The notes beneath the pieces are model-generated. The model saw nothing but the letters and a program-made list of their open reading frames with translations. It ran no database searches and was not told where the DNA came from. A stretch of DNA of 64,000 bases from the NCBI GenBank assembly GCA_032622095.1, contig CP136067.1:94292707-94356706 (forward strand), read 5' to 3'. Below, one piece after another: positions 725 to 58,472 of this stretch. The stretch is from Siphonodentalium dalli. Lineage: Eukaryota > Mollusca > Scaphopoda > Gadilida > Siphonodentaliidae. The translations under genes and the position numbers were made by a program. Each line of letters opens with the position of its first letter. The first letter of the stretch is position 1.

Positions 725-3700
725 CTGAAATAGAATTTTTTTTTGTTTAATTAAGAAATATGTAGGTAATACTGTTTCTTAGTCTCTTCGCTTCTCGGGA
801 TGGAGTGGGGGGGGGGGGGGGGGGGTCTGTATCATTATTAGACCTACCTCTCTGAATGTCATGTATACAGCTTTGAATCCTGGTTGTTTGGCATTATGCA
901 TGACTCGACAACTTCCATGCAGTAATCGCACACCTTCTCTCAAGCTGAGGGGGGTGGTATGTCTGGGAGAAGGGGGTCGATGGTTGTCTGATTATTAGAC
1001 CTACCTCTCTGAATGTCGTGTAGACAGCTTTGAATACTGGTTGTTTGGTGTTATGCATGACTCGACGACTTCCATGCAGTAATCGTACGCCTTCCTTCTC
1101 TGCCGGCTGACACAGGCTTTTATACATACAGTGATCTGTTCTATAATTCCAGTGACAATCATAAATGTACAATTGTTCTGAAAAAAAATAAATAAATAAA
1201 AACTTGTGATGTAATTCCCTCTTGGATGTCTTAATCTTAAGGCCATATAAACAAAATAGTTTGTTTTTCAGGGATTTTTTTTTTTAAAGTGATGAGGGAG
1301 GCAGTTATTTATATTTATTATTTTTTTCAAATTAATTCTGTGGTGAGGCAGGTATTTATTTATAAAGTATTTACTGGAATCCCATATTAAGCAGTAATAT
1401 GGGCAATATACCGAAGCAGGGAAGCTGCATGACCATCATATCATATATCAGATTTGTAATAGAGTTGTATAGAGCAAACAAGGACGTGGCTAGAGGGTCT
1501 CCATTAGGGGGGTGTGTCCACATTGGTAATTCCAACTGCACCCCCCCCCCCCCTTGAATCAAACCAAAACAGTCCTTGAATCAGACCAAATGTTTTGCAT
1601 AATTCCATTCCCTCCTTGCACCTAAGTGTTCACATGCCTAATAGCCTATTTATAAACCATGGTTCAATCTACCCGGTATCATAATATTCGTATATTTGAA
1701 CCTGAAAATTTCGCAAATCCTAACATCTACAGTAGTGGTCTAACTCCAGACAAATGCACACAACTATGGGCAATAGCCCAGGACACACCGGGCCAACTAT
1801 GGTTGTTCGGCCCGGTGTGAGAAAATTTTGAAAACTAAACAAGAAAATCGCTAAATCCTGGCATCTAGACTGACCTCAAGTTTTCCTAGTGTTGGAAATT
1901 TCAAACCTCATACTCTTCCTTAGTTTGGAAATTTTCCAACTGATGACCATTTTAACCAAATGTAGTAAAATATTGTTTTCTTACCAGACTAGGCTTACTC
2001 ACGAGGATGGGCTTACTGACCGGTGTATACAGTAATATCATTAGCAGATTTTTTATTGGCCACGGGGAGGGACCACGGCACACCGGGCCGACCATGGTTC
2101 GCCCCGGTATGCGAAAATTTTGAAATCTGAACAAGAAAATCGCAAAATCCTAGCATCTAGACTAGCCTCAAGCATTCATAGAGTTGGAATTTTCAAACCT
2201 GACACCGTGACTTAGGTTGGAAATTTCCAACTGATGACAATTCCAGTAACAATTTTGACCAAATGTAGGACAATATTGTTTTCTTAAATAAACTAGCAGT
2301 TTTTGACTGGTCACGGGGGAGGGACCAGGACACAAGCTTTCCAAGTGTTGGATATTTCCAACCTGACACCCCCTAAGGTTGGAAAATTTTCAACCGATGG
2401 CCATTTCAGTCCAATATTTTTACCAAAAGAAGGAAAATATGCAAATATTGGTCCAAAAACAATAAATTCCTCCCAATAAATTGTTTGGAAATCAAACTAC
2501 AAGAACATTTTCAACCTACTGTTGGCGTGAGACACCCCACCCCCCAACCCCCCTCTGTCGCCACGTCTCTGAGAGCAAACAGTTTGAGTTTTTCACTCAT
2601 ATGGCAGAAGATGCGAAAACTACATCGGTGAAATTTGACGTAACTCAGGGTGACCAGCCAGATCAAGCTTTATTGGAAGGAGTTCCACTGGACTACACAT
2701 GAATTGATAATATTAAATCACAACAATAATTTCTGAAATAAAAGGTTCATTTTCTAATTAATCAGACTTTCATAAAAATTACAACAAATGCACCAAAAAA
2801 AAAAATATACCAGTTGTTGTGGAACATGACATGAGCGATCTTGAAGTTTGGAATAGTGCTGATCCACAAACCAGTGTGCATTACATACAACAGCCACAAA
2901 CTGCCAACCCACACTGTCAACGCTATCATTTCGGAAGCCCACTTTGTTTTCACCTAACCAGTCAATGATTGAATGAATGAATTGCACAATTCGTCACGTT
3001 TGTTTTTCACATTTGTCTTACTGGGCAACACCACCTCATTGCAACTTGTCATCAGTACCGAGAATACATCAACTACTTCTCCCGATTTCTTCTGTGGTAC
3101 ATCTTCTTTGGTCACTCGAATTTGAAAATATCGTCCGAAAAATTGCGTGACTTCAGAAACCATGATGTCGCCTGCAACTGTGTCAAAGTCCCGTTTTGTT
3201 TTTGAAACAACCAGGTCAAAATCATCATCAATGTCTTTCGTGGACATGAAATCATCAGCCATTTGACGAACAGTTTTTGATCTGTTGACTGATATAATTG
3301 TCCATTTGCCTTCCGACGCATTCTGCACGATACAAATGTTCACCAAAGTTGCCATTTTGTTATTATTTTAAACAGGAAGTTCGCCGAATTATTCGCCCTT
3401 GTTGTTTGTGAATGTATAAAGTCCAGATAGATTTGCAGTCCAGATAGATTTGCAGTTTGCAGAAAGTTTCAAGACAAAGTTATCAGTCTGGGGCGGTTGG
3501 GATATGCGGTATTTATATATTTATTATTTACAGCTGCCAATAAATAAGGGGTAGCGCAGGTTTTTTTTGGGAGGCGGCGATCCCTGATAAATGAACCATT
3601 ATGTTTATATGGCCTAATATAAACTGATTCACACTCCTCGGCCAATCAAATTGCTCCAACCCATGAACATTATTTCTTGTATGAATCTGTATTTCGCCAG

Positions 3701-6700
3701 GACCAAAATATAGACTTGAGATAACACTCAATCAAGAAATTGGCATTAATGGCTCTGGGAAAAGTTTGGAGAGTAGCAGACGGGAGAACTCGATCAATTT
3801 CTATCTGACACCGACTCAACATTTCATGACAGTCTGTTCTAAATATAGTAATGAATAAATGCCCCAATTGATTATCTCATTATTTAATAAACTGTTGATA
3901 TAAAATCAATATTAATTGACAGAAACTTTTCCAGACAGGTGTTTTCGACTAATATTTATTATTTTATACCCTGGAAATTATATAAAATGTTTATAGGAAG
4001 AGATAATCCATCTCTAAAATGTTTGGTGGCTTGAATTAAAATGGAGATAAACAAGCGTGGAAATAGTGTGTCTGTCATTTGCATAATGAGGTCCCCAGAG
4101 GGTGAATTTAGTGACACTATCCCATACAGCTGGCTAGCATCACCAAATTCACCCTATGGAGACCCCATTCTGCTTTGGCCTCAACTTCTGGGAAGTATCT
4201 ATAGTATCAAATTAACATTCTTTTTAGTCACTTTATCCCTTCTGGGAAATTTGTATATCCCCTAATTTGCAGCAGATCAAATGCATAATCGAGGTGACTA
4301 ATGGTGCACATCACCAACTTCAACTGGGGAAACTTCAATCTGATCCTAGGTCTCCCATAGCAGTTGAGGCCTAAGCAGAATGAGGTTCCTAGAGGGTGAA
4401 TTTAGCATCACTAAATTCACCCTCTGGGGACCTCATTCTGCAAATGACAGACACACTATTTGCAGGATTGAAGATAACGGTACCCTGTATGGTTGGATAA
4501 TTGTGGATACGAGCATGAAAACAAGCCAACCTGTTCACAAACTTTTGTCCTCATATATCCAACTCATTAAAGTACGATTATCTCTTAAATGAAATTAGCT
4601 TACCTGGAAAATAGTGGAAATAAATATTAATGAGATCCTGGTCGCCCCATGTTATTTTTGTTTTATAATCTTTATAATATTCTGTGATTTTCTCAATCCA
4701 TGGAACCAATCTCAGCCTAGTCAAGTTCATTAACATCACGCCTGAATTTATACCTGAAAAAAATGAGGTTCATTAAAGACATATTATATGCACATTTCAC
4801 TACTTCAAACAGATATTTTACTATTCAATCACTACACCCATGTGATGAATTAATTGTTGAAAAATTCAACAACCTTGGATTTACTCTTTCTTAAAATACA
4901 TTATCTGAACTATGCAAATACCGGTATGTAAATAAGCAGTCTGTCATTCGTCCCGAACAAATTGCTGATAAACTAACGACAATGATTTCGCTAAAGAGAG
5001 TCACTATATTTTTGATTGTGTGCTGAGAAATTTGATACAAAATTCATTAAAACACCTGCTTTCAGCAAATTTAATCTGTGATAATGCATTCTTTTATTAG
5101 TGCGAGTCACACATATATAAGAGCATACATTGGCTTAGAATATTTACCTTGACCTTGTAAGCCAGTGCATTCTCTTATATATGAGAGGCTCCCTTTGGGA
5201 GAATTGCACATATAAGTGAATGCATTGGCACATGGTTTTCGCAAAATTTCAGGAAGCTCCAGTCATGGAATGTTTAACATCAATCCTGAATTTAAACCTG
5301 AAAGAAATATTTGCAGGTTCCTCTGTGTATAATTATGACATCCTTCAAATAAAACTTGACAATCAAAGATATATATAGAATATGTAGCTAATGCCGTCTC
5401 TTGAACGGTTTATATCAATGAGGGAGATTTGGCATCTATTGGACTCAATTTTCCCTCGTGGATATAAACTGTTTAAGCAACAGCATTAACAATGAATGGA
5501 ATTCAATTTACACCCCAACATCACCCTTCTATGATGCAATAAGTTCCTCAGTTGAACATGGTGATGTTCACCCATTAGTCACCTCAATTAAGCATTTTAT
5601 ATTTTGCAAATTAGGGAATATATAAACTGAACAGATGGGAAAATGTGTACTAAAAATAATGTCCCAAGCATCTTTTAGTATATGCTACAAAATGTGTAAC
5701 CATTACGAGCAAACCTACCTAAAGGGGGATAATAAGGATGTCATGCGAAGCATCCGTACCAAATCTTGGCTCGATCTGTCATGGGGCATAATAACATGTA
5801 AACTAAGTACTTACCTAAAGGGGGGTTATAAGGTTATTGTGCAAAACATCCATACCACCTCGTGGCTCGGTCTGTCATGGGGCATAATAACATGTAAACT
5901 AAGTACTTACCTAAAGGGGGGTAATAAGGTTATTGTGCAAAACATCCATACCACCTCGTGGCTCGGTCTGTCATGGGGCATAATAACATGTAAACTAACC
6001 TAAAGGGGGGTAATAAGGAATTTGTGCAAACCATCCATACCACCTCGTGGCTCGGTCTGTCATGGGGCTATATCAACAAATTCCTTATTACTCTCCTTTA
6101 GGTTAGTTTACATGTTATTAAATAACATGTAAACTAACCTAAAGGAGAGTAATAAGGAATTCGTGTGAAGCGTCCATACAAACTTGTGGCTTGGTCAAGT
6201 GACTCTATGCTAAAAGCTGCAATCTGGGAGGAGTTAAACTTAGTGAAGAAACTCCAAATATTCTCCATTGGATCGAGCAGCAAAACATCTGTGTCAAGGT
6301 AGAGCACTGAATCAACATTCTTTAGTATATACTACAAAAGATGAGTGAAGTATCATTAAAGGTAGAGCACTGAATCAACATTCTTTAGCATATACTACAA
6401 AAGATGAGCGAAATATCATTAAAGGTAGAGCACTGAATCAACATTCTTTAGCATATACTACAAAAGATGAGTGAAGTATCATTAAAGGTAGAGCACTGAA
6501 TCAACATTCTTTAGTATATACTACAAAAGATGAGCGAAATATCATTAAAGGTAGAGCACTGAATCAACATTCTTTAGTATATACTACAAAAGATGAGCGA
6601 AATATCATTATTAAAGGTAGAGCACTGAATAAACATTCTTTAGTATATACTACAAAAGATGAGCGAAATATCATTAAAGGTAGAGCACTGAATCAACATT

Positions 6701-9700
6701 CTTTAGTATATACTACAAAAGATGAGCGAAATATCATTAAAGGTAGAGCACTGAATCAACATTCTTTAGTATATACTACAAAAGATGAGTGAAGTATCAT
6801 TAAAGGTAGAGCACTGAATCAACATTCTTTAGTATATACTACAAAAGATGAGCGAAATATCATTAAAGGTAGAGCACTGAATCAACATTCTTTAGTCTAT
6901 ACTACAAAAGATGAGTGAAATATCATTAAAGGTAGAGCACTGAATCAACATTCTTTAGTAAATACTACAAAAGATGAGCGAAATATCATTATTAAAGGTA
7001 GAGCACTGAATCAACATTCTTTAGTATATACTACAAAAGATGAGCGAAATATCATTAAAGGTAGAGCACTGAATCAACATTCTTTAGTATATACTACAAA
7101 AGATGAGTGAAATATCATTAAAGGTAGAGCACTGAATCAACATTCTTCAGTATATACTACAAAAGATGAGTGAAATATCATTAAAGGTAGAGCACTGAAT
7201 CAACATTCTTCAGTATATACTACAAAAGATGAGTGAAGTATCATTAAAGGTAGAGCACTGAATCAACATTCTTCAGTATATACTACAAAAGATGAGTGAA
7301 GTATCATTAAAGGTAGAGCACTGAATCAACATTCTTTAGTATATACTACAAAAGATGAGCGAAATATCATTATTAAAGGTAGAGCACTGAATCAACATTC
7401 TTTAGTATATACTACAAAAGATGAGCGAAATATCATTAAAGGTAGAGCACTGAATCAACATTCTTTAGTATATACTACAAAAGATGAGTGAAATATCATT
7501 AAAGGTAGAGCACTGAATCAACATTCTTCAGTATATACTACAAAAGATGAGTGAAATATCATTAAAGGTAGAGCACTGAATCAACATTCTTCAGTATATA
7601 CTACAAAAGATGAGTGAAGTATCATTAAAGGTAGAGCACTGAATCAACATTCTTCAGTATATACTACAAAAGATGAGTGAAGTATCATTAAAGGTAGAGC
7701 ACTGAATCAACATTCTTTAGTATATACTACAAAAGATGAGCGAAATATCATTATTAAAGGTAGAGCACTGAATCAACATTCTTTAGTATATACTACAAAA
7801 GATGAGCGAAATATCATTAAAGGTAGAGCACTGAATCAACATTCTTTAGTAAATACTACAAAAGATGAGCGAAATATCATTATTAAAGGTAGAGCACTGA
7901 ATCAACATTCTTTAGTATATACTACAAAAGATGAGCGAAATATCATTAAAGGTAGAGCACTGAATCAACATTCTTTAGTATATACTACAAAAGATGAGTG
8001 AAGTATCATTAAAGGTAGAGCACTGAATCAACATTCTTTAGTATATACTACAAAAGATGAGCGAAATATCATTATTAAAGGTAGAGCACTGAATCAACAT
8101 TCTTTAGTATATACTACAAAAGATGAGCGAAATATCATTAAAGGTAGAGCACTGAATCAACATTCTTCAGTATATACTATAAAAGATGAGTGAAGTATCA
8201 TTAAAGGTAGAGCACTGAATCAACATTCTTCAGTATATACTACAAAAGATGAGTGAAGTATCATTAAAGGTAGAGCACTGAATCAACATTCTTCAGTATA
8301 TACTACAAAAGATGAGTGAAGTATCATTAAAGGTAGAGCACTGAATCAACATTCTTTAGTATATACTACAAAAGATGAGTGAAATATCATTATTAAAGGT
8401 AGAGCACTGAATCAACATTCTTTAGTATATACTACAAAAGATGAGTGAAGTATCATTAAAGGTAGAGCACTGAATCAACATTCTTTAGTATATACTACAA
8501 AAGATGAGCAAAATATCATTAAAGGTAGAGCACTGAATCAACATTCTTCAGTATATACTACAAAAGATGAGTGAAGTATCATTAAAGGTAGAGCACTGAA
8601 TCAACATTCTTTAGTATATACTACAAAAGATGAGCAAAATATCATTAAAGGTAGAGCACTGAATCAACATTCTTCAGTATATACTACAAAAGATGAGTGA
8701 AATATCATTAAAGGTAGAGCACTGAATCAACATTCTTTAGTATATACTACAAAAGATGAGCGAAATATCATTAAATGTAGAGCACTGAATCAACATTCTT
8801 TAGTATCTATATCTATATTTGCGAATGTCTGTCTGTCTGTCTGTCTGTCTGTGTTCTATAGAAATCCACAGGGGACCATCTAGATGATACCAAAGGCATC
8901 TACTAGGGGTAACTTTTTACGAGAAAGATAATGGTGGGGGTTAGAATTTTCTAAAGTGACGCCGTTGTTGTCAGGGGCAGAACATGGGGAGGGGCAGAAT
9001 TTTTTTTTGTCGCTGATTGCCACGAAACTTACATATAATCATCCCCATGATATGAAGAATCTAATGGCGTGGTTTATATATGTCAAAAGTGGCATTGTTC
9101 GAGTCAGTGATGCACGGAAGGGGAGAGGGGCACCAAAATTGATAAAACTAATTTTAGCGCCGATTTCCACCAAATTGATATATAGATACCAAAGGCGTCT
9201 ACTAGGGGTAACTTTTTACGAGAAAGATAATGGTGGGGGTTAGAATTTTCTAAAGTGACGCCGTTGTTGTCAGGGGCAGAACATGGGGAGGGGCAGAATT
9301 TGTTTTTGTCGCTGATTGCCACGAAACTTACATATAATCATTCCCATTTAACAACGCCAAATTGTTGTCGTTTGGATGAGAGATTGGGGGGGTGGGCACT
9401 AAATTTGATAAGAATGGTTTTAGTCGCCGATTGCCGATTGCCGATTGCCGATAATGGTGGGGGTTAGAATTTTCTAAAGTGACGCCGTTGTTGTCAGGGG
9501 CAGAACATGGGGAGGGGCAGAATTTGTTTTTGTCGCTGATTGCCACGAAACTTACATATAATCATTCCCATTTAACAACGCCAAATTGTTGTCGTTTGGA
9601 TGAGAGATTGGGGGGGGTGGGCACTAAATTTGATAAGAATGGTTTTAGTCGCCGATTGCCACCACCTATTCAAAATCATCCCCATGGTATGAGGAGTCTA

Positions 9701-12700
9701 ATGGTGTGGCGTAAATCTGTCATATGTGGCCTCATTCGAGTCAGGGGTGCACTGAAAGGGAGAGGGGCACCAAATTTTATACACATTATTTTTAGCGCCA
9801 ATTTCCACCAAATTGATACACGTTCTTATCCATGATACGAGGAATCTAATCGTGTGATTTAAAGACCCCATATTGGTGCTGTCTGTGTGAGCGATGGGGA
9901 GGGGAGGGGTGGGAACCAAATTTGATAAATATTTGTTTAGTCGCCGATTAGCACCAAACTTATAAATAATCATCTTCATGATATCAGGAGTCTAATTGTG
10001 TGATTTAAGGATGTCACAAGTGGGGCCATTCGAATAAGTGGTGTATAGAGGTGAGAGGGACACAAACAAAAATGATAACAATATGTTTAGCGCCGATTTC
10101 CACCAGATTGATACATATTCTTCTCCGTGATACGAGGAATCTTATCGCGTGGTTTAGATACACCGAATTGGTGCCCTCTGGGTGAGAGATACAAACGCAT
10201 AAACATAATCATCTCCACGATATGGCGCTGTTCGAGTCAGCGTTGCAGGGGGCATCAACAATTGATTTAATAAACTATTTTTAGCGCAGATTTCCACCAA
10301 ATTGATATATTGTTCTTCTCTATGATACGAGGAATATAATCGTGTGATTTAAAGACGCCAAATTGCTGCCGTTTGGGTGAGAGATGGGGGGGGGGGGGGT
10401 CTAATGGACGTGGTTTAAATATGTCAAAAGTGGCGCCGTTAAAGTCATGCATGAGGATGGCAGTTGCACCAAAGCTGATACAAATATATTTAGCACTAAT
10501 TTGCAGCAAATTAATACACGTTCTTCTCGAATGATACAATGAATTAAATCACATTTGGTGTCGTTTGGGTCACGGATGGCGAGAGGATATGCACTATCAT
10601 TAATAAGATTGCTATTCGCCGATATATCATTTTAAGGAGTTTTGGGCGTTCAAATTTCACAATCTCGACAAATGGTGACCCAATTAAGTCACTTGAATAA
10701 TTATATCTTCTCAACTGTCATATTTATATGGGGATGGCAATCAGGGAATTGGGAATTCACATAATGAGCTAGCAAAAAGAGATACATAGAAGACGCATTA
10801 AAAGTATATTTATCATTCTATTTAAGAGATACATATATTCTTGCAAACTGAGAGACCTTGAACCGTCAGAGGATTGCATATAATACAGTTTCCACAAACA
10901 AGTTACAATTTGTCAAGACATATGGAAATGTATCGGAGGCCTGTTCAAAAATAGTGGTCACAGTGTGCAGTCAATTATATTTTCGTCTGATATAAAAGAA
11001 AACGCATTCAGTAGCACATGAATTTTCAGGATCCTCCAATACTGACATCTGACAAGGGTATATCTGCCCAATACAGCTGAATTTTTAGAACAGACTCATC
11101 GACTAACATGTCTTATACACTGAGAATATTTAGCCAGTTTATAGCACCATGAACAGAGGAGCACCTGGAAATTTCTTTAAAACATATGTATCTTCATGGA
11201 GATATGATGGCCAGGTGTCCTCATGATCTTAGTCCAACTCACTAGATTGATTGATACATCTCTATATGTAAAACCCAATTGTTGTCTTTTATTTTTGCGA
11301 ACTAATGTGTTTATGATGTTCATGTATCATATTATAACGTCTAAAGTATACGCAGTTGTAAATAAATAAATACTTCATTATTGGTGGAACGTATTAATCG
11401 CGATAAACAAAATGACAATCGACAAGGTGAGCCACTACTTATATTCCATGACTGTGTAAGAATACTGTTTTGTGATGCTATTTGAATATACAATTTATGA
11501 GAATACATGTAACACTTTGAGCAAGAGTATTCTCTATTCCAAACAAATATCCACGTCATGCAGAGGGTTTTTTCACATCACTTTAACCTGGGCAACGCCG
11601 GGTAACCCTGCTAGTATACTATAAAAGATGAACAAATATCATTAAAGTACAAGTAAAGTAAAAGAGTAGGATCTATCTGTCCATCCCCCCTCTGTTCGGA
11701 TTTTTATCTCAGACCCTGGACAGATTTCTTGGTGACTCAGTGTACCCCGGCGGATGTTATAATTAGTATTTCAAAATTTTGATTAAAAAAATTATTATTT
11801 ATTACTTTTAAAGGCACTCAATCCGATCAAATTACTATTTCTTTGGCTTCGGGGGTAAAAAAAATAGTCCGAACTTTTCAAATTCAAATGAGTTCCACTG
11901 ATTGATCAGTCACACCATTAGAAGCAATAGCAATTTATATTTATTTTTCACATTTGGCTAAAATGGCTAATGGCAGCGCAAACACTGGCTATGGGAGACC
12001 TAGGATCAGATTGAAGTTCCCCAGTTGAAGTTGGTGATATTCACACATTAGTCACTCTCAATTATGCATTTTATCTTCAACAAATTAGGGGATATAGAAA
12101 CTGAACATAAGGGGAAAAAGTACCAAAGCAATGTTAATTTGAGACTGTAGATACCGGTACTTCCCAGAAGATAAGGCCTAAGCAGAACGAGGTCCACAGA
12201 GGGTGAATTTGGTGATGCAAGCTCGCTGTGCGGGGTAGCATCACAAATTTCACGCTCGGAAGACCTCATTATGCAAATGACAGACACACTATTTCAAGGC
12301 TCGGTTTTGACGTACCGGAACAAACATTCTCTGACTTGCGCATGGTTTGAACAGCTTTCTCCATTCTTCGGGGTCATAGGCCGATGGATATTGTATATCG
12401 TAGATATTGAGTTCAAGGTTATCTCTAAATTTCTTTGGCCACCCTTCAACCTGGAATTGAGACAACAGTTAACATATTTGTTTGAGATTATAGTAATGCC
12501 CTAAATAATCGACTCCTTAACCACAGCATAATTATGGGTAACTTTTCAGGATTAGGTCGGAAATATGGCTTTTTGCCATTCCTCGAAAAGCTCTCAATTA
12601 CCCATAATTCTGCTGTGGTTAAGGAGTCGATTATGTAGGGCATTACTGTATGCCTATACAGTCAATTTCAGTTAATTTAATATCGCTTAAGTGAATATTT

Positions 12701-13997
12701 CGGATATTTGCATAAAAATCGTCTGTACCAAACCATTTCCTTGTATGAAGACTGTTTCTTACCTCATTATTTGTTTCTAATGGTAATCTGCTCAAATCAA
12801 TTGAATATTTGAATATAAGTCGCCACTCCTTTCCAATATTTAAAAAATAATTCAGATTATTTTTGCATTCTGAGAGTTGTCTTCTGCGAAATCACATTGT
12901 AAATATTTTGAAATATTGGAAAGATGTGGCGAAATTGCTTCAAATATATGATTAATTTGAGCAGATGTACGTGGACCAGATAATGTTTCATGATATGAAA
13001 ACACAAAAAGTGAGAACATATGTCACCAAGCTTGAGTTAAACATCTGCAGCTCTAAAATCCAATTTTTATTTTTGGAAAACAACAAATTGTGGAAAAATG
13101 ACATAATTCAAATAAATTTTAAGTGAGTGAAGAAATTTACAACCAGAAGGGCAATTTTTATCAAAATGGACTCCTTCAGGCTTTTCGAGGCAGAAATTAT
13201 AATTACCTCAGTACGGCATTGTTTCTTTAGATCCTTGTCTGCAAACACATGGAACACTAGATGACTTTTAGTGAAAATGACGGCAGATTTCAGAACCACC
13301 AATGTCTCGTTCATTCGGTCACCACATGCCACCAGTACCAGATGTAGAGATTGCTTCCTCTCTCTAGAATGAAAGTTTCGATGACATTTTAGTATAGTAA
13401 ACATTTTGAAGATGATTATCTCTTTCTTAACTATTAAAATACTTATTGACGAGTGCAGGGACCAGCCATGAGATTAAAAATTTAGAGAAGTCACATCTCC
13501 CTGTTTGGCTAAGTGGACTCTTATCAAGAAAAGTGCATTCCGATAAATGGCAACAAGCCATATTTCCGACTAAATCCTGAAAAGTTACCCATAATTCTGC
13601 TGTGGTTAAGAAGTCGATTACTTAGAGCATTACTGTACATGTAGTATTGTAATGAGTGTTTTAAAAAAAATATGTTGTTGCTGTAATTTTGGCACCATCT
13701 TTAAAATAAGCAAAATTTTAAGGCAGACTACTATTCAATGGTCATGACTCCACCAACGTCATTGGCCAGTTTATAACAAATGTTTCACCTATTAGCTCTT
13801 TTGATTGGCTGTTCTTCATGAGTATTTTTAGCATCGATGTGTTCTTTGTTACCATCCTTTCCTTGATCGTTTACGATTCTATGAGCCTGTTGAGTTTGAT
13901 CATCTTTAATACCACTGTTATCTGGGGTTTCTACATCTAGTTCATCCTTGTTGTGAATTGCGCAGAACAAGCATACAGCGACTAAGATGATGACCAT
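554..13997 (-). CDS. GXYLT: GXYLT-like paralog, copy A, with transposon-split exon 1
   Basis: Exons: partial exon 1 13997-13789, then 13363-13207, 12450-12316, 6331-6139, 4753-4604, 1177-1005 and 724-554. From ATG 13997 the chain is 1188 nt (395 codons plus stop) with matching phases. The ancestral start (ATG 15210) is cut off by an element at 14004-15189. ATG 13997 arises where copy B has ACG, and would keep most of the hydrophobic anchor (MVIILVAVCLF). Exon 4 also lost conserved residues: B has WYGRFARHPYY where A has LYGRFTRIPYY. A may be a decaying gene or a functional variant using a new promoter; the sequence cannot decide. Confidence 0.8.
835..960 (-). repeat. Truncated exon 6 copy in block A
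   Basis: A single extra copy of the exon 6 3' half and donor, next to a poly-G run (about 808-826). Block A therefore has one unit where B has about five. Confidence 0.85.
1005..1177 (-). CDS. GXYLT: GXYLT copy A exon 6
   Basis: 173 nt with CAG acceptor and GTAGGT donor. One replacement (Ala to Thr) relative to B. Confidence 0.93.
1241..3614. mobile_element. 2374-bp TIR element with TAA target duplication
   Basis: Both ends start GGCCATATAAACA and stay similar for about 36 bp (to TCAGGGAT). Flanking TAA at 1238-1240 and 3615-3617 is single at the empty site in block B near 31207. A 3-bp TAA duplication would fit PIF/Harbinger-type elements, but I see no DDE transposase. The interior has a degenerate ~300-bp repeat (CCGGGCC...GGCCCGG phrases near 1790, 2070 and 2320) and one ORF region at 2760-3355. 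Confidence 0.9.
2765..3355 (-). pseudogene. Unrecognised ORF carried in the TIR element, frameshifted
   Basis: ATG at 3355 (MATLVNICIVQNASEG) opens 133 codons ending at a stop near 2954. The downstream reading switches frame to IIDWLGENKVGF, then a Trp/His/Cys-rich stretch (WQFVAVVCNAHWFVD) to about 2790. The switch lies at an ATTC tandem (about 2968-2985), where loss of one tetranucleotide would explain it. Both parts are polar, intronless and protein-like. I do not recognise a family, and it does not look like a transposase. It could be a captured host gene or an accessory transposon gene. Confidence 0.5.
4056..4466. mobile_element. M1 MITE in intron 5 of copy A
   Basis: Right hairpin is shortened (arms directly abut at ATTTAGCATCACTAAAT), a feature shared with the block B copy. 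Confidence 0.88.
4604..4753 (-). CDS. GXYLT: GXYLT copy A exon 5
   Basis: 150 nt with CAG acceptor and GTAAGC donor. The encoded protein is identical to B (NSGVMLMN, WGDQDLIN). The next intron is lengthened by the 2374-bp element at 1241-3614. Confidence 0.93.
5083..5272. mobile_element. M3-like remnant in intron 4 of copy A
   Basis: Hairpin region and AAGCTCCAGTCATGGA end, left terminus lost. Shared with block B. Confidence 0.78.
5700..6120 (-). repeat. Tandem truncated copies of the exon 4 3' end with donor
   Basis: Four ~95-bp units at about 5719, 5813, 5911 and 6000 match the last ~60 nt of exon 4 and its donor (TTTAG then GTAGGT or GTAAGT). In the exon frame they read like RATRWYGCF but contain a stop before PYYPPL, so they cannot replace exon 4. 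An inverted fragment at 6074-6120 ends the series. Confidence 0.9.
6074..6167. repeat. Palindrome spanning the exon 4 donor of copy A
   Basis: Two arms of about 47 bp meet at 6120/6121 (ATGTTATTA against AATAACAT at the centre, AAGGAGAGTAAT against ATTACTCTCCTT outward). The real exon 4 donor at 6138/6139 lies in the right arm, so a transcript could fold over it. Confidence 0.88.
6139..6331 (-). CDS. GXYLT: GXYLT copy A exon 4, diverged second half
   Basis: 193 nt, open. The first half including DTD matches B. The last ~33 codons hold about ten replacements, including loss of the conserved Trp and His of the WYGRFARHPYY segment. The donor is GTTAGT and lies inside a near-perfect palindrome (6074-6167). 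Immediately upstream in transcript direction lies the satellite of copied acceptors. Confidence 0.85.
6301..8815 (-). repeat. 63/66-bp satellite built from the exon 4 splice acceptor
   Basis: About 40 occurrences of the phrase GAGCACTGAATCAACATTC, counting the real exon 4 at the low-coordinate end. Read on the minus strand each unit is intron end (CATCTTTTGTAG), then the first 37-38 nt of exon 4 (YILKNVDSVLYL), then a stop and intron sequence again. Unit lengths are 63 bp, or 66 bp where ATT is doubled. Variants (AGC/AGT, TTTAGT/TTCAGT, GAAATA/GAAGTA) recur in multi-unit blocks, showing higher-order duplication. Block B has a single unit. Confidence 0.97.
8816..11614 (+). mobile_element. Helitron-like element, non-autonomous
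   Basis: Begins TCTATATC after A8815 and ends CCCTGCTAG before T11615, the TC...CTAG ends and A-T target of Helitrons. A GC-rich hairpin (GGGCAACGCCGGGT) lies about 12 bp before the end. Removing it rejoins TTTAGTA and TATACTA, restoring a satellite unit with no target duplication. The interior has a (GTCT)n tract and degenerate repeats based on GCGCCGATTTCCACCAAA. No Rep/helicase ORF is seen. A ~225-300 bp block repeats at 8930, 9228 and 9453. Confidence 0.88.
11989..12303. mobile_element. M1 MITE, 5'-truncated, beside exon 3 donor of copy A
   Basis: Lacks the left hairpin. Its right end reaches within about 13 bp of the exon 3 boundary. Confidence 0.85.
12316..12450 (-). CDS. GXYLT: GXYLT copy A exon 3
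   Basis: 135 nt, open, flanked by TTCCAG and GTACGT. Three conservative replacements relative to B. It is enclosed by the same two MITE insertions as in B. Confidence 0.9.
12490..12650. mobile_element. TA-flanked palindromic MITE, family M2 (CAGTAATGCCC)
   Basis: Family description. Full copies are ~205-220-bp near-perfect palindromes from TACAGTAATGCCCTAA to TTAGGGCATTACTGTA. Arms include GGATTTAGTCGGAAATATGG and GGAAAGCTCT at the centre. Ends with TA flanks fit Tc1/mariner-derived MITEs. Non-coding. This copy lies 40 bp before the exon 3 acceptor of GXYLT copy A and has a deleted right arm. Confidence 0.92.
13207..13363 (-). CDS. GXYLT: GXYLT copy A exon 2
   Basis: 157 nt, open, with the same splice signals as B. 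Differences are conservative (KS to QS, DED to DKD). Intron 1 is only 425 bp here against 3.3 kb in B, because B gained a minisatellite and other elements. Confidence 0.9.
13537..13637. mobile_element. M2 half element in intron 1 of copy A
   Basis: Right arm only. Confidence 0.85.
13789..13997 (-). CDS. GXYLT: GXYLT copy A exon 1, remaining 3' part
   Basis: Runs from the new ATG at 13997 to AATAG before GTGAAA, same phase as in copy B. The stem residues differ from B at several sites. The ATG is six bases from the insertion boundary. Confidence 0.7.
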
Positions 13998-14003
13998 CAC
14001 ACC

Positions 14004-29913: not shown

Positions 29914-32900
29914 CTGAAATAGATTTTTTGTTTGTTTAAAGCCACATGGCGGTTTGCGATCCAAAATACACATAATATTAATGGTTCCAGCTCAAGATTG
30001 CATGATTTAGACAACTTTTGTGAACCAATTTCACAATAAACATTGAATAGATCACCCGGTGGAAATTTCATGATTGTCAGTGATACAAAGAGAAATCAGC
30101 TCCTTCTCTCAGACTGAGGGGGGTATGTCTGGGAGGAGGGGGGTGGTCTGTCCGATTATTAGACCTACCTCTCTGAATGTCATGTAGACGGCTTTGAATA
30201 CTGGTTGTTTGGCTTAATGCTGGAACTCAACGACTTCCATGCAGTAATCGCACACCTTCTCTCTCGGGATGGAGGAGGAGGGCCTGTATCATTATTAGAC
30301 CTACCTTTCTGAATGTCGTGTAGACGGCTTTGAATACTGGCTGTTTGGCATTATGCATGACTCGATGACTTCCTTGCATTAATCACACTCTTTCTCTCAG
30401 GCAGATGGGGGTGGGGGGTGTCATATGTCTGGGAGGAGGAGGAGGGGGTATGTCTGGGAGGAGGGGGTCAATGGTTGTCTGATTATTAGACCTACCTCTC
30501 CGAATGTCATGTAGACAGCTTTGAATACTGGTTGTTTGGCATTATGCATGACTTGACGACTTCCATGCAGTAATCACACACCTTCTCTCAGACTGAGGGG
30601 GGGGGGGGGGGGGGGTGGTGGTATGTCTTGGAGAAGGGGGTCGATGGTTGTCTGATTATTAGACCTACCTCTCTGAATGTCGTGTAGATGGCTTTGAATA
30701 CTGGTTGTTTGGCATTATGCATGACTCAACGACTTCCATGCAGTAATCGCACACCTTCTCTCTTGGAATGGAGGAGGGGGGGTCTGTATCATTATTAGAC
30801 CTACCTCTCTGAATGTTGTGTGGACGGCTTTGAATACTGGTTGTTTGACATTATGCATGACTCGATGACTTCCATGCATTAATCACACTCTTTCTCTCAG
30901 GCTGAGGGGGGGGGGGGGTGGTATGTCTGGGAGAAGGGGGTCGATGGTTGTCTGATTATTAGACCTACCTCTCTGAATGTCGTGTAGACAGCTTTGAATA
31001 CTGGTTGTTTGGCATTATGCATGACTCGACGACTTCCATGCAGTAATCGCACACCTTCCTTCTCTGCTGGCTGACACAAGCTTTTATACATACAGTGATC
31101 TGTTCTATAATTCCAATGACAATCATAAATGTACAATTGTTCTGAAAATAACAAAATAAAAACTTGTGACGTAATTCCCTCTTGGGTGTCTTAATCTTAA
31201 TCTTAATCTTAATATAAACCGATTCATACTCCTCGGCCAATCAAATCGCTCCAACCCATGAACAATATTTCTTGTATGAATCTGTATTTTGCCAGGGCAA
31301 AAATATAGACTTGTGATAATACTATCTGACATCGACTCAACATTTCATGACAGTCTGTTCTCAAAATAGTAACGAAAAAGTGCCCAATTGATTATCTCAT
31401 TAAGTAAGAAAATGACAATATAAAATCAATATTAGAATAGAAGCTTTTCCAGACAGGTGTTTTCAACTAATATTTATTATTTTATACCCTGGAAATTATA
31501 TATAGGAAAAGATAATCCATCTTTAAAAATAGTGTGTCTGTCATTTGCATAATGAGGTTCCCAGAGGGTGAATTTAGTGACACTATCCCACACAGCTGGC
31601 TAGCATCACCAAATTCACCCTATGGGGACCCAATTCTGCTTTGACCTCAACTTCTGGGAAGTATCTATAGTATCAAATTAACATTATGTTTAGTCACTTT
31701 ATTCCTTCTGGGAAGTTTCTATATCCCCTAATTTGCAGCAGATAAAATGCATAATCAAGGTGACTAATGGTGCACATCACCAACTTCAACTGGGGAAACT
31801 TCAATCTGATCCTAGGTCTCCCATAGCAGTTGAGGCCTAAGCAGAATGAGGTTCCTATAGGGTGAATTTAGCATCACTAAATTCACCCTCTGGGGACCTC
31901 ATTCTGCAAATGACAGACACACTATTTGCAGGATTGAAGATAACGGTACCCTGTATGGTTGGATAATTGTGGATACGAGCATGAAAACAAGCCAACTCGT
32001 TCACAAACTTTTTTCATGCATCCTCATATATCCAACTCATTAAAGTACGTTTATCTATTAAATGAAATTAGCTTACCTGGAAAATAGTGGAAATAAATAT
32101 TAATGAGATCCTGGTCGCCCCATGTTATTTTAGTTTTATAATCTTTATAATATTCTGTGATTTTCTCAATCCATGGAACCAATCTCAGCCTCGTCAAGTT
32201 CATTAACATCACTCCTGAATTTATACCTGAAAAAAAAAGAAAGAGGTTCATTAAAGACATATTATATGCATATTTCACTACTTCAAACAGATATTTTACT
32301 ATTCAATCACTACACCCATGTGATGAATTAATTGTTGAAAAATTCAACAACCTTGGATGTACACTTTCGTAAAATACAATATCTGAACTATGCAAATATG
32401 TAAATAAGCAGTCTGCCATTCGTCCCGAACAAATCGCTGACAAACTTGTGATGTAATGACGACACATATATATGATACCAATCTTTAATGTATGATGTAT
32501 AATACACAATCAATGTATACAAAAGAAGTCGCTGAATTAATGTGTACAAAGCCGCGAAGTGATGGCCCCGAATGATAGGTGATGCCCGGTTTAAGTATAG
32601 GAACCTCAAGACAAGATGAGTCAAGTGAAAGCATGAAGTGATGGGGTGTAGCGGTGTCTTATATACTCTTGGGATGAATATAGGATGAGATATTTGGCAA
32701 TACACATCGGCATTGGCTCTGCCGTTATGGTCATTCCCTATGACCATATTTGGGGGATCGCCTTCATTGTGTGTGGGTCTGAGCTGTGATTAAGATGTGC
32801 GAGCTGAGGTTCCTGTAAGGAACCGAGCACTGATATTGAGTTCTATACTATACTTAGCACGTTAGCACAGGGGGACGATATAGTTATGTCACAAACTAAC

Positions 32901-35900
32901 GACAATGATTTCGCTAAAGAGAGTCACTATATTTGATTGTGTGCTGAGAAATTTGATACAAAATTCATTAAAACACCTGCTTTCAGCAAATTTAATCTGT
33001 GCTAATGCATTCTTTTATTAGTGCGAGTCACATATATATAAGAGCATACATTGGCTTAGAATATTTACCTTGACCTTGTAAGCCAGTGCATTCTCTTATA
33101 TATGAGAGGCTCCCTTTGGGAGAATTATATATATATGTGAATGCATTGGCACATAGTTTTCGCAAAATTTCAGGAAGCTCCAGTCATGGATTGTTTAACA
33201 TCAATCCTGAATTTAAACCTGAATTTAAATCTGTGTATAATTATGACATCCTTCAAGTAAAACTTGACAATCAAAGATATATATAGAATAATTAGCTAAT
33301 GCCGTCTCTTGAACGGTTTATATCAATGAGGAAGATTTGGCATCTATTGGACTCAAATCTCCCTGGTGGATATAAACTGTTTAAGCAACGGCATTAACAA
33401 TGAATGAAATTCAATTTACACCCCAACATCACCCTTCTATCATGCAATAAGTTCCCCAGTTGAAGTTGGTGATGTTCACCCATTAGTCACCTCAATTAAG
33501 CATTTTATATTCTGCAAATTAGGGGATATAGAAACTGAACAGAAGGGAACAAGAGCAAACCGTCGGGGTGTGGCATAATACGCCCGTTTCTGGAGTAGAG
33601 TGGGGCATGTAGACAGAACACATATTTGAATTTGAGCTGTATACCAAATTTGGTTCAGTTCACTTGATTCAATCTAAAGTTATCATTCGGAAACCGCAAA
33701 TCAGGTAAAATCTAAGTTGAAAAAGGGGCATAACTCAGTCAAAATCATGCGGACGAAACCCATATTCGAACTTGATCTTTATTTTGGTGTGGTAAACTAA
33801 CATACCAAATTTGGTTCAGTTCACTCGATTCAATCTAAAGTTATCATCCAGAAACCAAAAGCGGACAGACGGACGACGGACGGACAACGGACAGACGGAC
33901 GGACAACCCATTTACATAATACGACCGTTTTTTCAAACGGGCGTATAAACAGTAATAATGTCCCCAGCATCTTTTAGTATATGCTACAAAATGTGTAACC
34001 ATTACGTGCAAATCTACCTAAAGGGGGATATTAAGGATGTCATGCGAAGCGTCCATACCAAATCTTGGCTCGATCTGTCATGGGGCTTAATAGCATGTAA
34101 ACTTAGTACTTACCTAAAGGGGGTAATAAGGATATTGTGCAAAGCATCCACACCACCTCGTGGCTCGGTCTGTCATGGGGCATAATAACATGTAAACTCA
34201 CCTAAAGGGGGATAATAAGGATGTCTTGCGAAGCGTCCGTACCAACTCGTGGCTTGATCTGTTGATTCTAAGCTAACTCCCGCTATCTGGGAGGAGTTAA
34301 ACTGATTGAAGAAACTCCAAATATTCTCCATTGGGTCGAGCAGCAAAACATCTGTGTCAAGGTAGAGCACTGAATCAACATTCTTCAGTATATACTACAA
34401 AAGATGAGTGAAATATCACTAAAGTACCTGAAAGTACAAGTAAAGTAAAAGAGTAGGATCTGTCTGTCCGTCCCCCCTCAGTTCGTGTTTTTCTCCCAGA
34501 CCCTGGACAGATTTCTTAGTGACTCAGTGTACCCCGGCAGATGTTATAACAGCATTAGTATTTCAAAATTTTGATTTAAAACAAATTATTATTTTTAATA
34601 ACAAGAACAATGCAAGGGAATGGCAAAATACGTAAGTGTAATTTCAACAATGGGCCATAACTCAAGTGAAAATTGGAGGCAGAACCTAAATTCGAACTTG
34701 ACTTGTTTTTTGTGCTAGCAAACCCTCATACCAAATTTCAGTCCATTCAGTTCAGACTTACTAAAGTCATCAACAGGAAACCAAAAGCGAATGGACAGAC
34801 GGACGGACATTGATTGAGCAAGGAGTTCAATCTAAACAAAAATAAAAATAAAATTCTTTAACTTTAACAGACTTGAGCTCACAGAGATAAAATTTCAATT
34901 TGAACCAAAGAAAGGAAGTTTTCAGAGTCATCACTAGCTACGAAGAGCTCAAGTGTAATAGTGCCCTGCAAATCGGGGGTTTTCATTTCAAATAGAATCA
35001 GGCAGAAGATTCAAAATTGCATCGGATCTCGAATAAAATCATTGTGTCAAGTAAACAATAAATACATGTAGTGCAGGTATGAAACAGTTAAAGACATATT
35101 ACAGACTTGTTTGGTTGTGCAAAATTGATAAGTTAGTACTCAGACACTATGCGAACAGGAGGAATGTAACAATTTAATAACATCACCGAAAATCTCAATC
35201 AAATTGACCATACCACTCAATTGTCTGAACTACACTCAATTTTATATATTTACTTCTCGATTCGGGACGCAACTAAATTAACGCAAACAAATTCGGAAAT
35301 GAGAGTTACTGCATTTAATTAATATATAAGAATGATGGTGTGTGTTTGTCAATTTGGATACAATATTTGTAACAAATAACAACTTTGAGCAAGATTAGTT
35401 TCCATTTCTATTTGATCATCTTACCGGAGTGTTTCACATCACTTTAATAGAAAACTCAAAATGGTGGCCATAATAATTCGAAACCTCACTATGATAAGAG
35501 ATCATTAATGAAATATGATTTAAATGGATCATGTTCTTATCTAATCAAAGTAATTCGACATAAAAGACACCTTCAGCAGTGACAGCCACTCCATAATACA
35601 AACTGCTAACATCATTAACAGAGGCTGCGCCACAAAAAAAAATTAATTGAGTCTCAGACAATTTTTTCTGAATCAATGAGGGAGGGAAAACTTTATATTT
35701 AGCATGGATTATAATAGCTTTCCTTGTCTAGTAATGGTCCGAAAATTTTGCATCCGCTTATTTAATCTGATGTAAAAATTATATTGTGGCACTAGTATAC
35801 CTGTATTACAAAGGGAAATATTAAGATATTAGCCATTTCATGATGCTGGTGCAGCATTAAAGATCATGTACCAATGTATTCTCTTATATATGCGAGTCTC

Positions 35901-38248: not shown

Positions 38249-38293
<45 letters not shown>

Positions 38294-54519: not shown

Positions 54520-55291
54520 TATTCAAAGTTCCAGGCCAATATTTACGAAAACTGCTTCTCTTTTTGTTTAGATTATTTGGGGATTGACCATAATAAATGA
54601 CGAGTCTATAAATGCTTTTCGATATTTTTTGGTGCATGCTGCCATTTTTGGTCATTTTCATCATTAAGGCTTCATAATTGCCATCAGGTCTATAATGATA
54701 CACTTGGTCACAATACGATACAAACAATATAATACGAATAACGATACATGATCAATGATATGATATGTATCACGATACGCTAAAGTAGTGTTCTCAAATG
54801 ATCTACCACATGAAATATCAGAATCAACATATTTATAATTGGAGATAGAGATAATTTTAACTAAAATGTAGTTTAATAGTGAGCTATATGAGTCAAATAA
54901 ACATAATAGACATGTAAACTTTGAGAGAACTTTGCAGGTTTTGCTGTTTTACACAAACCCATCATCAGATATTACATGATTTCCTGTATCATATAACATG
55001 ATACAATATGCGTATTGTTTGAAAGTGTATGGTGATACATTGAATTCATGATGAATCATTAGAGCCCTAATTGCCATAATGCATTTACTAACAAAATTGA
55101 AATTAACCTTTCAGGATTGTTTCCACCCCCGCCCCTTTGTATAAATGCAATGAATGCTACCAGTCCTGTTAATTTCTTTAAGAATGAGAGGCCGATCACA
55201 ATAAGCAGGTGTTTAACCCATCCCTCGGCGATGGTAAATAGCTATGATCGGAATCATAATCTAGAGTTATGATGTTGAATTATAGAGTATA
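54520..55291. other. AT-rich DNA without recognisable features
   Basis: Contains ACGATAC/GATACA-rich low-complexity stretches and no supported exon. Confidence 0.5.
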
Positions 55292-58127
55292 CTAGCAGGG
55301 TTATCCGGCGTTGCCCAGGTTAAAGTGATGTGAAACCCTCTGTAGATATTTGGTGGGAATAGAGAATACTCTTGCTCTCAAAGTGGTACACGTATTCTCA
55401 TAAATTGTATATCCAAATGGCATCACAAAACATGATTCTTACACATGGAATATAAGTAGTGGCTCACCTTGTCAGGTCGGAGCGATTATTATTTTGTTTA
55501 TCGCGAATAATCCGTCCCACCAATAAAGAAGTATTTATTTATTTACAACTGCGCATACTTCAGACGTTATAGCATGAAACATGAACATCATAAACACATT
55601 AGTTCGAAAAAATAAAAGACGACAATTGTGTTTTACATACAGATGTATCAATCAATTAATCAATCTAGTTTATCATATCTTCATGAAGATACAGATGTTT
55701 TAAAGATATGTCCATATGCTCCTCTGTTCTGGTGCTATATACTGGCTAATCATTTTCATAAAAGATTTGATGTTATGCATGCATAGCAGCTACATGTGCC
55801 CGACACAGCGAGATTTTGAGTTGTTTATGTTAGGCGATGAGTCTGTTCTATAAATGAAAGAAATCCTCTGTATCTGGCAGATATACCCTTGTCAGATGTC
55901 AATATTGGAGGATCCTGAAAAGTCATGTGCTACGGACTGCGTTTTCCTTGATCTCAGAAGTAACCATATTTGACTGCACACTGTAACCACTATTTTTGAA
56001 CAGGCCTGCTCTACATTTCCATATCTCTTGGCAATTGTAACTTTTTTGTGGAAACTATATTGAATGGGACAGACTCAATCGTGTTACATATAATATATAC
56101 ATGAGCCATTATAATATGCGATCCTCTGACGATTCGAGGTCCCTCAGTTTGAATGAATATATGTATCTCTTAAATAGATTAATATAAATATACTTTTAAT
56201 GCTTTCTTCTATGTATCTGTGTTGCTAGATCATTAAAGGAATGCCCTGATTTCCATCCCCATATAAATATGACAGTTGAGAAGATATAATTGTTCAAGTG
56301 ACTTAATTCGGTCACCATTTGTCGAGATTGTGAAATTGGAATGCCAAAATCTCCTTAGAATGACATGGAGATGGCCTGGTAGATGACTGTATATAACTTT
56401 GTTGGATATCGGCGAATTGAACAATCTTATAAATGCTAGTGAATCTCCTCGCCATCCATAACCCAAACGAACCCAAATGTGATTTAATTCATCATGTCAT
56501 TAGAGAAAAACGTGCATAAATTTGGTAGAATCAGCGATATTAGACTCATGGTAATCGGCAACTAAACAAATTCTTATCATAGTTATTACCCCCCCCCCCA
56601 TCTCTCACCCAAACGGCACAAATTTCGCGTCTTTAAATCACACGTTTATATTTCTCGTATCACGGAGAAGAATAATATATCAATTTGGTCGAAATCTGTG
56701 ATAAAAATAGCCCTTCCCCTGACATCAACAACGCCACTTTAGAACATTTTAACTCGCACCATTATCTTACTCGTAAAAAGTTACCCCTGTTAGACCGCCT
56801 TGGTGCCATCTCGATTGTACCCTTAAAGTTATATATAGAACAGTCAGATATTCGCAAATATTTGATTCATTGTATCATTTGAGAAGAACGTGTATGAGTT
56901 TGATGGTAATTGGCACTAAACATATTTTTATAAGTTTTTGGTGACCCTCCCGTCCATATGTCGGACTCAAGCGGCGCCACTTTGACATCATTAAACCACA
57001 CACTTAGACTCATTATAGAGATGAATATATATACAATTTATAAAAATTGGCGAGTATGCAAATTCGTATCAAATTTAGGGCCACCATTGCATATCTCTCA
57101 CACAAAAGGCACCAATTTGGCGCAATTAAACCACACGATTAGATTATTCGTATCACAGAGAAGAATATGTATCACTCAGGTGGAAATCGGCGCTAAACAT
57201 ATTGTTTATCAATACACACTCTAGGCACCCCTGACTCGAATGGCCCCACTTTTGACATCTTTAAGCCACATAATTAGACTCCTGATATCATAGAGATTAT
57301 TATTTGTAAGTTTGGTGCTAATCCGCGACTAAACAATTTTTTATCAAATTTAGTGCCCACCCCCATCTCTCACAAAAGCAGCATCAATATGACGTCTTTA
57401 AAATCATACGATTAGATTCCTCATATCATGGATAAGAATGTGTATCAATTTGGTGAAAATTGGCGCTAAAAATATTGTGTATCAATTTTGGTGCCCCTCC
57501 ACTTTCACTGCACCCCTGACTCGAATGACGCCACTTTTGACAGATTTAAGCCACGCAATTAGACACCTCATACCATGGGGATGAATTTGTATAAGATTCG
57601 TGGCAATCGGCGACTAAACCAATTATTGTCAGATTTAGTACCCACCCTCCGCCCCTCAAATATCTCATCCCAACGACACCAATTTGGCGTCTTTAAATCA
57701 CACAATAAGATTCCTTGTATCATGGAGAAGATCTCAGAAGAATGTGCATCAATCTGGTGGAATTCGGCGCTAAAATTATTTTGGATCAAATTTGGTGCCT
57801 CTCTCCCCTTCCGGGCATCCCTGACGCGAACAGCGTGACTTTTGACATATTTAAACCAAACTATTAGATTCCTCATATTATGGGGATGATTATATATAAG
57901 TTTGGTGGCAATCGGCGACAATTTTTTTCTGCCCCTCCCCTTTTCTGCCCCTGACAACAACGGGGTCACTTTAGAAAATTCTAACACTCGCCATTATCTT
58001 TCTCGTAAAAAGTTACCCCTATTAGACCCCTTTTGTGCCATCTAGGTGGTCCCCTGTGAATTTCTATAGAACACAGACAGACAGACAGACAGAAAGACAG
58101 ACAGACATTCGCAAATATAGATATAGA
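55292..58127 (-). mobile_element. Second Helitron-like element, inverted
   Basis: Same family as 8816-11614 in opposite orientation: CTAGCAGGG start and GATATAGATA end on the plus strand, with A/T flanks. The hairpin end, internal GCGCTAAA-type repeats and the GTCT/CAGA tract are shared. Length is 2836 bp. It lacks the triplicated block and has no helicase ORF. Confidence 0.87.
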
Positions 58128-58472
58128 TACTGTTATGTAATAAATTAGTATAGACAAATGTACATAATAAGACAAGTTCTCAAACTATTTATGGAATTTA
58201 TGGGTCCTGGTGCCAATTTTGCACTAGTAGGTGTTATTTTGACATCAGTAGGCATATAATAACATTGGAATACCTTATGACCCCTATCCTGAGATAATGA
58301 ACAAAGTCCATACCCTGGTAGTATGTTTTGCTCTCAAGAAATTAGTTTAGACCATACAAAAGTATTATCCATATACTTGTAATGTTTATACAGACATAAT
58401 ATGATGAGGATACTGGCCCTTATGACTCCTAGCCTGAAACAAGTTACCACAGTTCACATAAAAGACATTAAC

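Follow-up and report, generated by a model that had tools for sequence, protein, structure and literature searches.

The cluster of GXYLT-like sugar-transferase genes in the scaphopod Siphonodentalium dalli raised the question of how one of its members, copy A, came to carry dozens of apparent splice acceptors in front of exon 4, and whether they serve any purpose. The window under study is the 64,000-nt stretch CP136067.1:94292707-94356706, taken from a single assembly (2.23 Gb in 9 contigs), and a wider region of 124 kb or 324 kb was examined, depending on the test. It holds two GXYLT copies, A and B, of seven exons apiece on the minus strand, while two further copies, C and D, lie downstream beyond the window, bringing the total to four in the 324 kb. 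The tandem run of decoy acceptors upstream of exon 4 of copy A was present in the assembly as the initial annotation had described it, and is an extreme instance of a repeat type already described, one that most likely grew here by neutral expansion. Tandem repeats across exon-intron boundaries were named "mirages" in amphioxus, as PMC3087553 reports, and we consider it probable that the array is a neutral boundary minisatellite of this type residing in a decaying paralogue, where it perhaps lowers correct splicing.

Tandem-repeat detection delimited the array to positions 6296-8806 (minus strand; period 63 bp, 39.5 copies, 95% matches), immediately ahead of the true exon 4 (6139..6331, minus strand, 193 nt, first base 6331, containing the DTD motif) and between it and exon 3 (12450-12316, minus strand, donor CCG/GTACGT). 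Counting by acceptor motif returned 38 complete decoys (31 units measuring 63 bp and 7 measuring 66 bp), together with a partial outermost exon piece; of the roughly 39 extra units proposed initially, the 39th is represented only by this piece, its acceptor being located at 11618. The unit was correctly read as the end of intron 3 plus the start of exon 4, but its exonic part measured 36 nt (12 codons) rather than 37-38 nt, and is followed by the terminal 27 nt of intron 3, or 30 nt in the 66-bp form. The unit join reads ...CTCTACCTT/TAATGATA..., where three nucleotides, CTT, are common to the exon and the native intron and leave the placement ambiguous; a short match at the join is a frequent trace of small tandem duplication. 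A 21-base exon core, searched with at most three mismatches, gave 41 matches in the window against 0.00 expected from 100 shuffles. Forty of them fell in copy A and one in copy B (34362-34382), confirming that exon 4 of copy B (34202..34394, minus strand) has a single acceptor.

As had been anticipated, each unit contained an acceptor followed by a stop. AG was kept in 38/38 decoys, as TTTTGTAG in 37 and TTTTATAG in one, and all 38 read 12 codons and then TAA, with exactly YILKNVDSVLYL before the stop in 32 of them; every decoy reading ends just before the DTD motif of exon 4. The distance to the nearest upstream AG was 36 nt for 32 and 39 nt for 7 of the 39 acceptors (decoys and true site), in the two sites displayed a TTAAT branch-point candidate precedes the acceptor by 24 nt, and 11 of the 38 decoys were identical to the true acceptor at positions -20 to +3. 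As decoy and true sites are alike, nothing apparent favours the true acceptor save the adjoining exon 4 body and donor.

These properties, namely an AG and a stop before DTD in every decoy, an AG-free stretch of 36 or 39 nt before all 39 acceptors, the TTAAT candidate and the sites equal to the true one, are what would be expected of a splice attenuator or switch, in which each additional decoy would reduce, by way of nonsense-mediated decay, the proportion of transcripts with exon 3 properly joined to exon 4, and which would have been retained because it silences or tunes copy A. We nevertheless hold such a device unlikely. Only 9 of 63 sites varied among the decoys (5/36 exonic and 4/27 intronic, the 66-bp units being compared without their 3-nt insertion), at which rate, as simple arithmetic indicates, any two chosen positions have about a 73% chance of being invariant, so that conservation of the AG is uninformative. 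Conservation of AG or of frame was therefore rejected as evidence of function in so uniform an array. Moreover, copy A is truncated at its start and relaxed, as detailed below, and the amphioxus RNA data, as given in PMC3087553 and PMC3902484, point to undisturbed splicing. The exonic changes, four amino-acid-changing and one silent, completed a picture of decoys with no sign of selection or coding constraint. The lengths of 63 and 66 bp are indeed multiples of three, but this carries no weight because in the frame of exon 4 all the decoys run into a stop. A length-tunable variant of the attenuator, in which the number of units sets the enzyme output of copy A through failed joins and decay and acts as a heritable dial among individuals, appears very unlikely. 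Titration of splicing factors, which had also been put forward, found no support, since the decoys bear no sign of selection and each transcript would offer few sites.

The internal order of the array bears on its origin and on its reality. The units belong to 16 distinct types in an ordered pattern, the seven-unit pattern HCEKKIH was found twice, sharing one unit, and an exact 509-bp internal repeat occurs at a 381-bp offset, in agreement with the initial statement that variants recur in multi-unit blocks. Block-wise unequal exchange or slippage would thus lie behind the growth of the array, and the block duplications within it suggest turnover. As the array was seen in one assembly, and an exact 509-bp repeat is a spot where assemblers can err, the array might have been wrongly expanded or collapsed. 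We judge an artefact of this sort quite unlikely in view of the 16 unit types in ordered pattern, of a length of 2.5 kb, which is shorter than ordinary long reads, and of the split outermost unit, which would be unlike a misassembly of identical units. At this outer edge a dispersed element of about 2.8 kb (8807..11617, unstranded, ends approximate) separates the partial 39th exon piece, whose core lies at 8777-8797 and which begins at the element edge, from its acceptor at 11618, 2.8 kb away. The acceptor belongs to the native end of intron 3 (11618..11650, minus strand) and reads TTTTATAG. Because the element splits the outermost unit, at least two units would predate its insertion. A second, inverted copy of the element was located at about 55280-58131, the two copies being 65-88% alike in pieces. 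The element also contains internal repeats, and a GACA microsatellite lies close to one of its ends.

Whether the units could be spliced as small exons was evaluated from their potential donors. The four GTs of the unit consensus scored -0.25 to -3.27 bits, while the 12 authentic donors of A and B scored 5.65 to 11.12 bits with an approximate donor matrix. The decoys are therefore unlikely to be internal exons, and no usable donor was found inside the unit on this scale (best GT -0.25 versus at least 5.65 bits). The same scores weigh against an early stage of intron or microexon gain, by which the repeats would become tiny introns and exons as in potato RdRp. According to PMC4974935, a boundary-crossing duplication in potato did make a new intron with an exonic donor, and splicing at TCA/GTGCTC would by arithmetic release in-frame 24-nt pieces here; however, the resulting introns would be only about 39 nt long, and we find such a gain scarcely credible. 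An introner, that is a mobile intron, was rejected, as a DNA search of the animal's own genome returned at least nine matches, seven in the array, one in copy B and one in copy C exon 4, and no dispersal in unrelated genes. Special RNA structure of the array was rejected on a shuffle test on a 253-nt stretch with four exon pieces, which folded no better than its shuffles (z -0.21; 78/200 at least as good).

The state of copy A was then considered. Its exon 1 (13789..14003, minus strand) lacks the first 15 coding nucleotides found in B, C and D, including the ATG, and an in-frame ATG follows. Changes outside exon 4, assigned by means of C, plus D where the exon is present, amounted to 7 nonsynonymous and 3 synonymous on the A branch and to 1 and 6 on the B branch, with 2 and 11 unassigned; the A and B counts differed with a Fisher p of 0.0498, nucleotides being treated as independent. 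On these small counts, constraint on copy A is relaxed. At 18 of the 25 sites that differ, exon 4 of A agrees with C and not with B, a pattern suggestive of gene conversion involving a C-like copy. Among the exon 4 changes private to A is one residue, Trp in the remaining 14 of 15 aligned sequences, that has become Leu.

A further peculiarity was found at the other end of exon 4, where a near-perfect palindrome with 44-nt arms, 98% complementary (6076..6164, minus strand), holds the exon 4 donor (6139/6138) inside one arm. Its predicted RNA fold reached -81.7 kcal/mol (z -13.2), and 0/200 shuffles were as good. The donor scored 6.9 bits against 10.71 for that of copy B, and two downstream donor copies scored 11.02 each on the same approximate matrix. 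The donor hairpin may harm the splicing of copy A more than the decoys do. The palindrome resembles an inverted copy of the donor region.

The exon 4 acceptor is not the only boundary affected in the cluster, as boundary duplications were present in at least three of the four copies, at the exon 4 acceptor (A), the exon 4 donor (A and B), the exon 6 donor (A, B and C) and the exon 5 acceptor (C). In copy A the 3' end of exon 4, its donor and the start of intron 4 are repeated at 5716..6068 (minus strand), with extra donors at 6000, 5911, 5815 and 5719, and copy B has a donor-side repeat of exon 4 at 34013..34262 (minus strand), with further donors at 34114 and 34018. Exon 6 shows extra copies of its terminal part and donor, one in A (848-937; exon and copy together 848..1177, minus strand) and five in B (30155..31141 including exon 6, minus strand). 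Ten of the 26 exons across the four copies had a local partial copy under the filter used. In each of the four copies, short echoes of the exon 5 start precede the genuine exon, and only that of C passed the local-duplication filter. Two candidates were discarded: an echo of exon 4 in copy C (window coordinate -21755), a separate and more diverged piece that has no acceptor and is not a comparable unit, and two arrays of copy D outside the window, 45 bp x15 and 33 bp x11.5 (window coordinates -43552..-42878 and -33236..-32853), whose units are intron-only and which begin about ten to some tens of bases into the introns past the exon 5 and exon 1 donors.

The hits on exons 4, 5, 6 and 7 suggested that duplications were enriched at exon junctions. 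This idea found no support in shift tests, in which a local duplication was defined as a same-strand match of at least 28 nt within 2.5 kb. Such duplications occupied 20.4% of the 124 kb and 20.7% of the 324 kb. In the 124 kb, 10 of 48 exon ends fell inside them (7/44 splice junctions and 3/4 exon-7 ends), compared with 9.8 expected from 20,000 shifts (P 0.51); four of the 48 ends, the exon 1 donors and exon-7 ends of C and D, are approximate and were set by copy B exon lengths. In the 324 kb, 7/44 junctions were inside against means of 5.8-10.7 under 12 parameter settings (P 0.38-0.89), with no excess in 12/12. As junctions are hit at the background rate, the boundary repeats look like general local duplication, which suggests that boundary minisatellites need no special mechanism. 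Exon interiors were covered less, 9.0% in the 124 kb and 7.8-8.5% in the 324 kb under the 12 settings, and duplications inside exons would be removed by selection. Fourteen arrays with at least 10 copies and a period of at least 20 were detected in the 324 kb, and by coordinates the other 13 span no GXYLT junction, other genes in that region not having been looked for.

Taken together, neutral expansion is the best supported of the three options offered initially, and silencing of copy A may occur as a side effect. The process probably started with a small tandem duplication in which the first 36 nt of exon 4 became fused, at CTT, to the final 27 nt of intron 3; such a first step would be tolerable because a boundary-crossing tandem copy leaves one whole boundary beside the exon. 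Growth to 38 decoys would have followed by unequal exchange or slippage, partly in multi-unit blocks. The setting would be copy A, a paralogue devoid of its native start codon and of much of its constraint, no order of events being implied. If exon 3 were partly joined to decoys, the resulting messages would stop after 12 codons, before DTD, and might be degraded by nonsense-mediated decay, lowering copy A output as a by-product with no selected role. An effect of the array on splicing is plausible.

Several observations weigh against neutral growth in a decaying paralogue. The coding frame of copy A is free of stops throughout exons 1-6, and exons 2-7 of A and B show a pairwise dS of 0.204 and dN of 0.026, so that constraint must have persisted over a large part of the period after the two copies split; copy A may still be in use. 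The branch counts are small, and 13 changes are unassigned. In 20-kb bins the cluster is 14-32% duplicated and its flanks 4-34%, the cluster being slightly richer, partly through the array, which is also the highest-scoring one in the 324 kb. Finally, 38 decoys far exceed the 6 and 3 units of the two BflGb6 haplotypes described in PMC3087553.

The gene models on which these results depend were built from open frames, splice sites and homology. Copy A extends from 14003 to 558 and copy B from 43290 to 29747, both on the minus strand; in each, exons 1-6 form a single open frame, exon 6 being located at 1005-1177 in A and 30969-31141 in B (minus strand), and exon 7 of copy B terminates GGC ATC AGG TAG. 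The search of the 324 kb detected neither exon 3 nor exon 4 in copy D. Both GXYLT-like proteins of the window match Pfam Glyco_transf_8, and among the best 31 of 120 listed homologues (1188 found) the top named ones come from Pinctada, Mactra and Tegillarca, with 49-52% identity; the 20 that bear an organism name are all from molluscs. An opposite-strand 33-nt exon-4 fragment, 94% alike, was observed outside the window (window coordinate 96684-96716), far from the four copies, and may be a remnant of another copy or of a rearrangement. In copy A, the interval separating exons 5 and 6 includes a 137-aa open frame (2954-3367, minus strand), within a stretch of about 1240-3615 that has no counterpart in copy B. 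A run of 44 G was observed at 38249-38292.

The initial annotation knew of no named system like the array, which did not hold, as mirages and boundary repeats in human and potato have been described. Amphioxus mirages occur in Adh3 and in the globin genes BflGb6 and BflGb9 (PMC3087553), with PGBD5 and troponin C added by PMC3902484, and BflGb6 has 6 and 3 units in two haplotypes. The present array shares with them minisatellite-like tandem units across the boundary of a real gene, hits on both 3' and 5' boundaries, many units with AG or GT and partial homogenisation between units. It differs in size, with 38 complete decoys, in occurring in a mollusc instead of a lancelet, and in that several boundaries of one cluster are hit; in amphioxus, RNA data suggest normal splicing, while the copy A array was read in genomic DNA. 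Human genes in segmental duplications (PMC2812944) likewise have minisatellites at exon-intron boundaries of recent paralogues that change gene structure, but with units averaging 30 bp x4 and with reported transcripts carrying changed introns. The potato duplication (PMC4974935) also extends from the 3' end of an intron into the 5' end of the exon, taking with it branch site, pyrimidine tract and AG, but consists of two copies and has a cryptic GTAAG donor, to which the array unit holds nothing comparable. No report of mirages in molluscs was found among the matches listed from open-licence literature, where bivalves were the sole mollusc group queried, and with coverage so limited priority is not established. 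With 39 almost identical acceptors lined up in tandem, the array offers a natural experiment on how the spliceosome settles on a single one, a question relevant to the choice between scanning and exon definition. What is notable is its copy number and its occurrence outside lancelets: boundary minisatellites, known under their name from lancelets, also emerge in an animal group far removed from these, and can reach a much greater size there.

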